From Sulfurospirillum halorespirans DSM 13726 (GTDB lineage Bacteria > Campylobacterota > Campylobacteria > Campylobacterales > Sulfurospirillaceae), in the NCBI RefSeq assembly GCF_001723605.1, contig NZ_CP017111.1, positions 1,116,001-1,180,000 on the forward strand: DNA of 64,000 bases, read 5' to 3'. The notes beneath the pieces are model-generated. The model was not told where the DNA came from and searched no databases. It saw nothing but the letters and a program-made list of their open reading frames with translations. Shown one piece after another: positions 5,399 to 9,281 of this stretch (position 1 is its first letter; each line of letters begins with the position of its first letter). A program made the position numbers and the translations under genes.

Positions 5399-7594
5399 TT
5401 AACGCGCTAAATGCACCGCTTTTATCATGTTAGTCAGTGCAGCTTTAGTCTCACTCCAGCCTCTGGTTTTAAGCCCGCAATCGGGGTTGATCCAGAGTTG
5501 CTCTTTGGGGAGCACTTGCAAGAACGCTTTGATCTGCTCGCTCATCTCTTCCACGCTGGGTACGCGCGGCGAATGGATGTCGTAGACGCCTGGTCCTATT
5601 TGCGCTTTGTAGTTTGCTTTTTGGAAAACTTTGAGCAGTTTATTGCCACTGCGTGAGGTCTCGATAGTGATGACATCGGCGTCCATTCGCTCTATCGTGT
5701 CGATGATGTCGTTGAAGTTGCTGTAACACATGTGTGTGTGAATTTGGGTTTGATCCCATGCGGTACCCACGGAAGCTTTAAAGCTCTCGACCGCCCATTT
5801 TTCATACGCTTTGATCTTCTCCGCGCGTAATGGATAACCCTCTTTGAACGCCGCTTCATCGACTTGGATGATCTTGATGTCATGACGTTGAAGCTCATCG
5901 ACCTCTTCAGCGATGGCGGTGGCGACTTCGTAGGCGACCTCACTTTTAGGAATGTCATCGCGCACAAACGACCAGTTCAGAATCGTCACAGGTCCTGTAA
6001 GCATGCCCTTCATTGGCTTGTCGGTTAAACTTTGCGCGTAAACCGTCCAGTCAACGCTGAGGGGTTGTTTGCGACTCACGTGTCCGTATAAAAGCGGTGG
6101 CTTAACGCAACGGCTTCCGTAGCTTTGCACCCAACCATTTTGGCTGAATGCAAAACCCTCTAGCAGTTCGCCAAAATACTCAACCATATCGTTACGCTCG
6201 AATTCGCCATGTACCAAAACATCCAGCCCTAATTCTTCTTGGAACTCAACGCACTCTTTGATGGACGCTTTCAACGAAGTTTCATAAGCTTCTCGTGTAA
6301 TCTCACCTTTTTTATAAGCATTGCGAACCGCTCGGGTCTCTTTGGTTTGCGGAAATGAGCCGATGGTGGTGGTCGGGAAAAGTGGCAAATTCAGCGCTTT
6401 TTGTTGCAAAGCAAAACGGGTGGCATACGCTGATCTGGTATAGAAAATGCCACTGCTTTTAACCGACGGTGCTTTTTGAGTGCATGCGCTTATCTCAGGT
6501 TTTTCTCTTTTCTCCCAAAGCGTGTTGATCTGCTCTAACTCTTCGAGTTTTTCAAGTGCAAAACTCAGGCGACTTTTGACTTCGGGTGCCAATTTTTCTT
6601 CAAACTTAGTTGAAAAAGGTACATGTAAAAGCGAGCATGAGGTGGAGAGGATGATGTTTTTTGCATCCACTTTTTCGCTTATTTTCTCTAGCAATGCGTA
6701 CGTTTTGAAAGCATCGTTTTTCCACACATTGCGTCCATCGATGAGCCCAGCGATAAGCATTTTATCGTTTACATGTAAAAGCGCTTCAAGGTTCTCTTCG
6801 CCATAGACAAAATCAAGCCCTATCGCCCAAATAGGGCAATTTCCCAAGATTTCCACTGCTTCATTGGCTCGATCAAAGTACGTTATAACCGCGATCTTAA
6901 GATGGCGACTTACCGTTCCTAAACGCTCATACGCGATTCTAAGAAGGCTTAAAAATTTTGGCTCCAATGTTTTGGCAAAGAGTGGTTCATCGAACTGAAC
7001 GATAATGTTTTCACCCAAACTTGAAATGGCTTGGAGCACTTTAGCGTACGCTTCCACGACATCATCAAAGAAGCCAAACAGATCACTTCCATCAACGGGG
7101 TTACAAAGCGCTAAAAAAGTCAATGGTCCAATAAGATTGATCTTAGGATCGATCCCAAGCGCTTTGGCTTCAATGTACTCATCGACGATTTTGGAAATGT
7201 CGACTTTGAACGCCATGTGTGCGTGAATCTCAGGAACGATGTAATGGTAATTGGTGTTAAACCACTTGGTCATCTCCATGGCGGAACGTTGCGCATCGCC
7301 CCTTGCCATCGCAAAATAGCGTTCGGTTTTATCTTCGATGCCTTGGAAGCGAGGAGGGATGGCGCCAAGCATTACCGCCGTGTCGAGCATTGTGTCGTAC
7401 AGACTAAAGTCATTGCACGAAATAAAATCAACATGACGCTCTTTTTGGTAGTTCCAATGGCGCTCTCTGAGCGTTTTTGCAACTCTTTTTACCGTTTCAA
7501 AATCAGAATTCCCCGCCCAATACGCCTCTAGCGCAAATTTGAGCTCACGTTTTTCCCCAATGCGAGGAAAGCCCGTAACGTAGGTTTGTGACAT
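5399..7594 (-). CDS. metE: Cobalamin-independent methionine synthase
   Basis: A 731-residue 5-methyltetrahydropteroyltriglutamate-homocysteine methyltransferase, catalysing the last step of methionine synthesis without vitamin B12. The N-terminal half (starting YVTGFPRIGEKRELKFALE) and C-terminal catalytic half (LPLFPTTTIGSFPQT) are both complete. Zinc ligands are visible as HTHMCYSNF near residue 620 and NPDCGLKTRGW near 704. Length is close to the usual 750. It stands alone with a 26-nt hairpin about 30 nt before its start and a probable terminator after its stop. It carries one exact palindrome (6769-6778, LLHVND) and one variant (about 6620, LLHVPF). Confidence 0.97.
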   Translation of the reverse strand: MSQTYVTGFPRIGEKRELKFALEAYWAGNSDFETVKRVAKTLRERHWNYQKERHVDFISCNDFSLYDTMLDTAVMLGAIPPRFQGIEDKTERYFAMARGDAQRSAMEMTKWFNTNYHYIVPEIHAHMAFKVDISKIVDEYIEAKALGIDPKINLIGPLTFLALCNPVDGSDLFGFFDDVVEAYAKVLQAISSLGENIIVQFDEPLFAKTLEPKFLSLLRIAYERLGTVSRHLKIAVITYFDRANEAVEILGNCPIWAIGLDFVYGEENLEALLHVNDKMLIAGLIDGRNVWKNDAFKTYALLEKISEKVDAKNIILSTSCSLLHVPFSTKFEEKLAPEVKSRLSFALEKLEELEQINTLWEKREKPEISACTQKAPSVKSSGIFYTRSAYATRFALQQKALNLPLFPTTTIGSFPQTKETRAVRNAYKKGEITREAYETSLKASIKECVEFQEELGLDVLVHGEFERNDMVEYFGELLEGFAFSQNGWVQSYGSRCVKPPLLYGHVSRKQPLSVDWTVYAQSLTDKPMKGMLTGPVTILNWSFVRDDIPKSEVAYEVATAIAEEVDELQRHDIKIIQVDEAAFKEGYPLRAEKIKAYEKWAVESFKASVGTAWDQTQIHTHMCYSNFNDIIDTIERMDADVITIETSRSGNKLLKVFQKANYKAQIGPGVYDIHSPRVPSVEEMSEQIKAFLQVLPKEQLWINPDCGLKTRGWSETKAALTNMIKAVHLAR

Positions 7595-8090
7595 AGTTAT
7601 TTTCCTTAGTATCTTTACACCTCAAAAAAGCACTGCTTTTTGAGAAAATTAAGCCAGCTTCAATGCGTGGCAAAGCTCGTTGTTTAATGGTTGAAAGAAA
7701 GGAAAAAGTGGCGGATGGATGCCTGTTCGGCGGAAGCTAAAGTAGCGGCAATGGCAGTTGCATTTACGTCTTTTTTTGGCACGTTTGATGGCGGAGTGGG
7801 CGCGCTTTGCGAACAGTCGACTGCATTTACAAAGACGAGGGCGATACGTTGAGACAAATCCAAGAAGGGCAGAAGCGAGTGGCGGCGGATCGTCTTCAAT
7901 CTCTTCAGGAGCGCAGGTATCAGCAAAGAGTCGAGCGGTGTGCAATAGGCGTGCGTGTTGGCGTTTGGTTTTGTATTCGATGGTCGAAGCTTGAATGGAA
8001 GCGAGCCTAAAGTAGCCCTTTTTGCCAAAGCCCAGAGGCAGTCTCACGTGATCCACGTCCTTGTACTATGATGGCGGCATTATAGCATAA
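7595..8090 (-). other. Gene-poor region upstream of metE; possible long leader or unrecognised ORF
   Basis: About 500 nt without a gene I can name. A hairpin at 7621-7644 (CTCAAAAA...TTTTTGAG) precedes the metE Shine-Dalgarno region. Two overlapping minus-strand frames are open: 7649-8056 (135 codons, GTG) and 7684-8028 (114 codons, TTG); neither resembles a known family, and their reading frames alternate in plausibility. A TATAAT on the minus strand at 8079-8084, facing metE, would start a transcript near 8072 running about 470 nt to the metE ATG. I do not see the conserved cores of cobalamin or SAM riboswitches. It may be a regulatory leader, a small unknown gene or a gene remnant. Confidence 0.3.
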
Positions 8091-8105
8091 TAGACTTCTT
8101 GCATA
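8079..8105 (-). promoter_or_regulatory. Outward-facing promoter at the edge of the inverted-repeat element
   Basis: Reading leftward, TTATGC (inside the terminal repeat) is separated by 16 nt from a perfect TATAAT at 8079-8084. This points toward metE. The -35 match is weak, as is usual in Campylobacterota, so the call rests mainly on the -10 box. Confidence 0.4.
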
Positions 8106-8357
8106 ATCTAATGCAATGGCATTGTTCTCACAAGAGACAATAGCGAGGCACATTTTTGAGTCATAGCTAAAGCTATGGCGATGAAATGTAACGAAGGCTA
8201 GTGTTTCTTGTGAGAACAACCCTACGGGCAAGTGTGAAAAGAAAATTCTAACTTCGTTAAAAAATCTCACCTTGCAATAAGCAAGGCTTCAATTTTTTGC
8301 CTTGTTATAACTTCTTTTGACACTTGTGCCACTGCATTAGGTTATGCAAGAAGTCTA
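8091..8357. mobile_element. 267-bp MITE-like element with 30-bp terminal inverted repeats
   Basis: The left end TAGACTTCTTGCATAA (8091 onward) is repeated inverted at the right end (8328-8357). The 30-bp arms agree at 28 positions. Two further inverted pairs are nested inside: TTGTTCTCACAAGA at about 8122 against 8204-8219, and CAAGTGTnAAAAGAA at about 8229 against 8312-8327. The element has no transposase and would fold into one long stem-loop. TA at each tip is compatible with a TA target duplication. This is the structure expected of a non-autonomous transposon (MITE). A short relic with the same tips may lie at 57405-57433. Confidence 0.6.
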
Positions 8358-8429
8358 ATAGTTTACATGTAAAAACTATTTACCAAAGTTAGGTAAAATA
8401 ATACAACGAATTTTTCAAGGAGCATGTCC

Positions 8430-9281
8430 ATGGAAGTGGTAAAAACCGTTGTATTATTGACCTTAATGAGCGTGTTGTTTGTCTGGGTTGGTGGCATGAT
8501 GGGTGGAACGCAGGGGATGATGATCGCGCTTGTATTGGCAGGTGTGATGAACTTTGTGAGCTATTTTTACTCCGACACATTGGTGCTTCGTCACTACAAT
8601 GCGGTGCCTGTAACACGTGAAGCTGCCAATGGACTTTACATCATCGTTGAGCGTTTAAGTCAAAAAGCCAATCTGCCTCTGCCTCAAATCTACATCATCC
8701 CTGATTCCGTTCCAAATGCCTTTGCAACAGGGCGCAATCCCTCGCATGCGGCCGTTGCCGTTACCGAAGGGCTTTTGCAACTTTTGGACGATGAAGAAGT
8801 CGAAGCCGTTTTAGCGCATGAGCTGAGTCACGTGAGACATTACGATATTTTAGTCGGAACCATTGCGGCGACTATCGCAGGCGCCATTGGCGTGATTGCC
8901 AATATGATGCAATTTGGCGCGATGTTTGGAGGGAGCAGGGAAAACAGACCCAATCCTATCGTGATGATTGCTCTTGCGATCATCTTACCACTTGCTGCTG
9001 CGGTCATTCAGATGGCAATCAGTCGCAACCGTGAATACATGGCAGATGAAGGCTCGGCGCGCTTGACAGCGCATCCTGAGTGGTTGCAAAGTGCGCTTGC
9101 AAAGCTTTCAAGCTACAACGCGCAAGGGATGGTGCATGAGGCAACGCCTGAGAGTGCACATATGTTTATCATCAACCCTTTTGCGGGTAAACATATCTCC
9201 TTTGCGTCACTTTTTTCGACGCATCCGTCCACGGAAGATCGGATTGCAAGGTTAGAAGAGTTAAAATTCGAGATAAAATAA
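8430..9281 (+). CDS. htpX: M48-family zinc metalloprotease, HtpX-like
   Basis: A membrane protease of 283 residues. Two N-terminal membrane helices are followed by the zinc-binding HELSH at about residue 130, two further hydrophobic stretches, and the downstream glutamate ligand region EYMADEGSARLT. The C-terminal STHPSTEDRIARLEEL is typical of HtpX, which degrades misfolded inner-membrane proteins with FtsH. I choose the ATG at 8430 over 8424 because AAGGAG (8417-8422) is then spaced 7 nt from the start. A TTTACATGTAAA palindrome (8363-8372 core) lies about 60 nt upstream and another 1 nt after the stop. Confidence 0.9.
   Translation: MEVVKTVVLLTLMSVLFVWVGGMMGGTQGMMIALVLAGVMNFVSYFYSDTLVLRHYNAVPVTREAANGLYIIVERLSQKANLPLPQIYIIPDSVPNAFATGRNPSHAAVAVTEGLLQLLDDEEVEAVLAHELSHVRHYDILVGTIAATIAGAIGVIANMMQFGAMFGGSRENRPNPIVMIALAIILPLAAAVIQMAISRNREYMADEGSARLTAHPEWLQSALAKLSSYNAQGMVHEATPESAHMFIINPFAGKHISFASLFSTHPSTEDRIARLEELKFEIK

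Follow-up and report, generated by a model that had tools for sequence, protein, structure and literature searches.

A mobile cloverleaf element between the metE- and htpX-type genes of Sulfurospirillum halorespirans and the recurrence of its core with other transposon ends

The window analyzed here is a stretch of 64,000 nucleotides, positions 1116001–1180000 of a genome of 3,029,840 bases, and coordinates below are window positions. Between a metE-type gene (5399–7594, minus strand) and a gene for an HtpX-type M48 peptidase (8424–9281, plus strand) lies a short folded element bordered by AAT on both sides. The names metE and htpX come from the initial annotation and are compatible with the domains that we detected. 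A 135-aa frame (7649–8056, minus strand) is also present between metE and the element; its DNA is similar in relatives, and a native TATAAT block is situated just upstream of it. At the element itself, the sole open reading frame of at least 80 aa was an 87-aa minus-strand frame running out of the element. The features of the locus are as follows.

8092–8356, no strand: mobile element, a 265 bp cloverleaf (four-way junction) MITE, recognized from empty sites, a scar, a duplication, copies elsewhere and its fold
8089–8091, no strand: target duplication AAT, left
8357–8359, no strand: target duplication AAT, right
8092–8121, plus strand: left strand of the closing stem P1, which is the left terminal inverted repeat (28 of 30 positions match the right end)
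8327–8356, minus strand: right strand of P1, the right terminal inverted repeat
8122–8219, plus strand: arm 1, 98 nt, folding better on the plus strand
8158–8182, plus strand: conserved arm-1 tip, GAGTCATAGC-TAAA-GCTATGGCGAT
8220–8228, no strand: mini-hairpin CCC-TAC-GGG (CCCTACGGG), 9 nt, at the junction between both arms
8229–8326, minus strand: arm 2, 98 nt, an apparent inverted relative of arm 1, folding better on the minus strand
within 8229–8326: arm-2 tip, terminator-like on both strands
8107–8112: TCTAAT, left member of a direct repeat consistent with the deletion scar seen in two relatives (G004 and G005)
8354–8359: TCTAAT, right member of that repeat
8079–8084, minus strand: native TATAAT, outside the element, in a block (GGCATTATAGC) present in 12 of 21 relatives

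Being short (265 bp), free of a transposase gene and bounded by terminal inverted repeats that match at 28 of 30 positions, exactly the figure first claimed for them, the element qualifies as a MITE. The initial annotation had placed it at 8091–8357 (267 bp); a MITE is indeed there, but the mobile unit is 8092–8356, and one base of each AAT duplication had been wrongly included. The two inner inverted pairs described at the same time are real and correspond to arm 1 (8122–8219) and arm 2 (8229–8326).

We compared the locus with that of 21 relatives that gave an htpX match and found the element at this place in none of them. One relative, G006, reads GCACAATGGTTTACATG at the position of the element, and the length of the AAT duplication agrees with this empty site; the duplication predicted earlier was thus found, although it is the 3 bp AAT rather than TA. 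G004 and G005 retain ∼24 nt from the start of the left end, fused directly to the right flank, the product that a deletion between the two TCTAAT repeats (8107 and 8354) would leave. Upstream DNA of L072, L081 and L088 was too divergent for the site to be called simply empty. About 60 bp upstream of htpX, L081 carries a short stretch, ATTAGACTTCTTG, that resembles a class A end and may be due to chance.

Only one full-size copy of the element occurs in this genome, and nearly full copies were found at other sites with different surroundings in two other genomes (L039, 96% identical; L040, 92% identical). Searching the genome for the element ends, as had been proposed, returned the tip TAGACTTCTTGCATAA 48 times at up to two mismatches, against 3 for the reversed control. 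Neither the window element nor that of L148 matched plasmids, and the tip pattern had no match in viral contigs. The neighboring genes showed no clear orientation bias across copies (−+ 7, ++ 7, +− 3 and −− 3 for full-size and other copies; ++ 5, −+ 4 and −− 2 for the one-arm group).

An autonomous element with the same tips was also present, as had been anticipated: four copies of a ∼909 bp insertion sequence, with one mismatch over the 16-base tip. Its tips read TAGACTTCTTTCATAA, with AAT outside both ends, and it carries two overlapping frames, in which HTH_Tnp_4 and DDE_Tnp_4 domains were detected. At the frame overlap the run CCCAAAAAAAG is identical in all four copies (L011, about 1900–2010) and recurs in 62–63% identical relatives from other species with the tip AGACATCTTGCAAAA; the retention of this run suggests a likely programmed −1 frameshift between both transposase frames. 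With these domains and its ANT duplication, the partner is a candidate member of an IS5-family subgroup. Among 45 class A and A2 rows, some of which are one insertion seen in two species, identical 3 bp flanks were found in 25, of which 24 are ANT, and were absent in 20. Together, the target duplication, empty sites, deletion scar, copies elsewhere and a resident insertion sequence with near-identical tips bear out the earlier proposal of a non-autonomous transposon, and the anatomy of both units points to the ∼909 bp insertion sequence as what probably moves the 265 bp element in trans.

The same interior was not confined to these ends. For the comparison, copies were counted once when their cores and the 25 nt flanking each side were identical, rows without both ends were marked with a question mark, and the 25 rows of 255–275 bp were taken as full-size. 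These full-size copies fall into four end classes (A, A2, B and C) with different target duplications; through matches to the arm-1 tip we reached elements whose ends read CTGACCTTACGCAC (class B), GGGCACCTCTAAAAA (class C) and AGACTTATTGCG (class A2), and an additional end type was seen at L301. Class B elements are flanked by TA on both sides in 4/6 cases after adding one base per side, and no transposase was found near the class B ends inspected. At three loci, class C ends enclose transposase frames; DUF772 is found in two of these and DDE_Tnp_1 in the third. Identical flanks of 4 bp were seen in just 4/14 class C elements. The arms of a class C element (L148) closely resemble those of a class A2 element (L152), and the ends of the two are unrelated. 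Several end classes occur within one genome. Shortened copies without arm 2 were seen as well (L172, L173 and L182), and a one-arm group of 163–165 bp is present in Sulfurospirillum.

Three further forms were noted alongside these. In two class A copies, L154 (348 bp) and L175, extra hairpin sequence interrupts arm 1 next to its tip. One element, of ∼56 bp (L007, 1475–1532), is minimal and consists of little beyond two class A ends. This genome also contains a second MITE family of ∼138 bp (L010, L014, L022 and L026), whose ends are TAGACTTCTTGCAAAA and TAGAGTTCTTGCAGAA and whose interior differs.

We then followed the core across bacteria. Allowing two mismatches, the tip pattern occurs in 26 of 398 genomes from the order, representing 6 of 87 genera, and the control gave no match. 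Exact tip matches in a named genome collection came from 26 stretches, nearly all of Sulfurospirillum, Sulfurimonas or another Campylobacterales group, some of them titled Proteobacteria only. A covariance model of the core matched 109 of the 398 genomes, from 29 of the 87 genera, with E ≤0.001; these E-values are rough, and the model scored 9 candidates in each genome. By eye, the cloverleaf was recognized in 15 of 17 covariance loci; the other two, L284 and L292, are off-target stretches outside by-eye judging. In a draw of 121 genomes from the phylum, the number outside the order not being given, matches came from the same order only (9/121).

The initial annotation had described the element as able to fold into a long hairpin. 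Folding is real and well outside chance expectation (z −14.3 for DNA on the plus strand and −13.3 for RNA on the minus strand; 0/200 shuffles each), but the shape is a four-way junction common to elements with unrelated ends and not merely a hairpin of inverted ends. Its layout has no slack: a P1 stem of 30 bp, an arm of 98 nt, the mini-hairpin and a second arm of 98 nt, with 0 unpaired junction bases. Across the full-size copies, the four-way junction with the central mini-hairpin formed in 23/25, in 23 on the opposite strand too, and in 0/500 shuffles. The P1 strands were equally long in all 25 (29–32 nt), and 21 of the 23 copies with the four-way fold had no unpaired junction base.

An alignment and covariance model of 22 of the 25 full-size copies (L040, L183 and L189 were left out) gave a consensus structure of 65 pairs, 47 of which showed at least one compensated double change. 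For arm 1 plus the mini-hairpin (22 sequences), both-sided changes were observed in 25/43 pairs. The covariation score of this part was 0.375 compared with 0.163 in shuffles (0/500) and ≤0.157 when slid, to be read with the copies being related, so that covariation and polarity counts are non-independent events and the shuffle and slide controls leave the relatedness in. A known structured RNA was rejected as a candidate, as Rfam gave no match in the window at gathering scores; on six loci, Rfam returned just two unrelated matches below threshold.

When the elements were oriented by arm 1, arm 1 was more stable on its own strand in 40/40 and arm 2 more stable on the opposite strand in 38/40, the exceptions being L298 and L308 (RNA parameters for both). 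The arm-1 polarity follows partly from the tip used for orienting, whereas the arm-2 polarity does not. This set comprised 44 rows, from which L286+, L288−, L301− and L310− were dropped for lying on the strand opposite to the model match; L186 has no two-arm junction. With opposite arm polarity, each strand carries one sense arm. Comparing arm 1 with arm 2 directly, the inverted comparison scored higher in 20/24 elements and above all 200 shuffles in 8/24; the similarity is weak in many elements, and the arms look like inverted relatives of each other. By eye, G-U and G-A pairs account for the polarity, for example TTGTGCAA opposite TTGTGCAA, a pairing with at least one copy in 16/40 arms. The polarity is equally compatible with RNA and with single-stranded DNA.

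We also counted isolated mismatches. G-T and A-C numbered 4 and 5 in full-size class A copies, 1 and 5 in A2, 8 and 9 in B and 18 and 14 in C, and 22 and 10 in the one-arm group. The balance in full-size copies led us to reject a whole-element RNA selected on one strand; it is compatible with the opposite polarity of the arms, without proving that polarity.

The same balance, together with the lack of a gene-orientation bias, agrees with an alternative, an ordinary MITE with a functionless fold. Palindromes can retain pairing through template-switch correction without selection. A palindromic core that corrects itself in this way would then be shared by common descent, with its ends replaced by rare recombination, which is possible given that several end classes occur in the same genome. 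However, template switching should yield perfect Watson-Crick arms, and strand-specific non-Watson-Crick features persist (40/40 and 38/40). The near-constant lengths of arms and stem, while their letters vary, likewise argue against it. We regard this alternative as unlikely, while leaving it a sizeable share of our belief.

Known mobile repeats resemble the element in part. Bacterial MITEs moved by IS5-type insertion sequences are, like this one, small, gene-less and intergenic, with a short duplication and ends near those of a resident insertion sequence; they differ from it in that its interior is a conserved four-way-junction core, also found between ends that belong to other transposons. 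In Caulobacter and Brucella, CIR elements (∼110 bp) likewise have two long hairpin arms with a linker and a conserved motif near one tip, but they are described as without end-to-end pairing, whereas here paired ends of 29–32 bp close the junction in 25/25 full-size copies (PMC2229807). Nor is the GANTC near the CIR arm tip held here: the tip motif is GAGTC in 21/25 full-size copies and GAGGC in 4/25, with GAAGC-type tips in L290 and L291. Correia/NEMIS repeats of Neisseria, reported as stem-loops of 107 or 155 bp with TA termini, are likewise mobile, with inverted ends and a strongly folded transcript; the portion of the source available to us does not describe a cloverleaf for them (PMC2229807). 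QMITE2 of Coxiella combines a core with terminal repeats of 23–29 bp, and its predicted transcript folds strongly; the available portion of its description mentions no order-wide core with several end types (PMC10969869).

Among open-licence papers, searches for MITEs in Sulfurospirillum, Epsilonproteobacteria or Campylobacterota genera, for cloverleaf MITEs and for the tip sequence returned nothing relevant. No Rfam family matched the core, and its absence from that literature is weak evidence of novelty.

Closer to the locus, the element may have been put to use. Terminator-like hairpins lie on both strands at 8269–8287 in the arm-2 tip, the region has 3 such hairpins against a shuffle mean of 0.6, and the element sits between divergent units, as would suit an element acting in both directions, as terminator or insulator, between htpX and the unit transcribed leftward. 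However, the site is empty in relatives, so that this could be at most a local later use, and the terminator-like tip of the window copy is outside the conserved part of the class; we consider such a role improbable.

Still less credible is a promoter supplied by the element. An outward TATAAT facing metE had been read as part of one end. It does face metE (8084–8079, minus strand), but it is host sequence, 7 bp beyond the edge of the element; the block in which it lies, GGCATTATAGC, occurs in 12/21 relatives, none of which has the full element, and a scan of 7900–8500 found no consensus promoter. We therefore rejected an element promoter, and give it very little weight. In relatives such as G006, the palindrome TTTACATGTAAA adjoins the native leftward −10 block; here the insertion lies between that block and the palindrome (8362–8373), and it may still alter the sequence upstream of that −10.

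The palindrome is abundant in its own right. It occurs at 8362–8373 and at 18 other places in the window (19 in total; shuffle mean 0.00), and 785 times in the genome against 1 for the reversed control; across all 24 genomes of the genus, the counts range from 14 to 792. In this it is similar to highly iterated palindromes, for instance the cyanobacterial HIP1. A literature search found the string in three papers, none of them on these bacteria by title.

Least probable of all is a fixed, immobile structured RNA gene of this locus, for which the strong fold and covariation speak, but which is refuted by the empty sites (21/21 relatives lack the element, two of them with a scar) and countered by copies at other loci. 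The initial annotation had named a single copy conserved here in all relatives, with RNA-like covariation, as the case against mobility; covariation is present, and conservation at this place is absent.

Overall, we favor a MITE whose folded, orientation-independent core is under selection and hitch-hikes on exchangeable ends, the unit being moved in trans by the resident DDE insertion sequence; we put the probability of this reading at roughly 0.6. The transposase of the insertion sequence would bind the ends and move the unit, as its anatomy suggests, and in this Sulfurospirillum lineage it would have inserted the element at AAT between metE and htpX. The interior would be a conserved cloverleaf core rather than leftover transposon sequence, and in other lineages the ends of other transposons would close the same core. 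Such a core may be kept because the folded strand, as a transcript or as transient single-stranded DNA, matters; an effect in one of these two forms is favored because of the polarity, and the fold may aid movement, shield transcripts or reduce harm to neighbors. Because the arms are inverted, one sense arm is present on every strand, and insertion in either orientation would leave a working core.

A bolder version of the favored reading, which we regard as a tentative possibility, is that these elements form a separate mobile-element class: a selected four-way-junction nucleic acid with one sense arm per strand would persist by taking on the ends of any active DDE transposon, and its fold would interact with a factor of the host or of the transposon, whatever the orientation of insertion.

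The usual account of MITEs treats them as the remains of a single transposon after deletion. In the present case, a single internal core of near-constant shape, whose arms have opposite strand polarity, recurs with at least four types of ends across a bacterial order. If selection acts on the core, structured cargo that survives its transposon can travel in MITEs, and the natural copies would offer ready-made variants with which to test what an element gains from folding. Annotation of intergenic regions in Campylobacterales would likewise benefit from the structure model.
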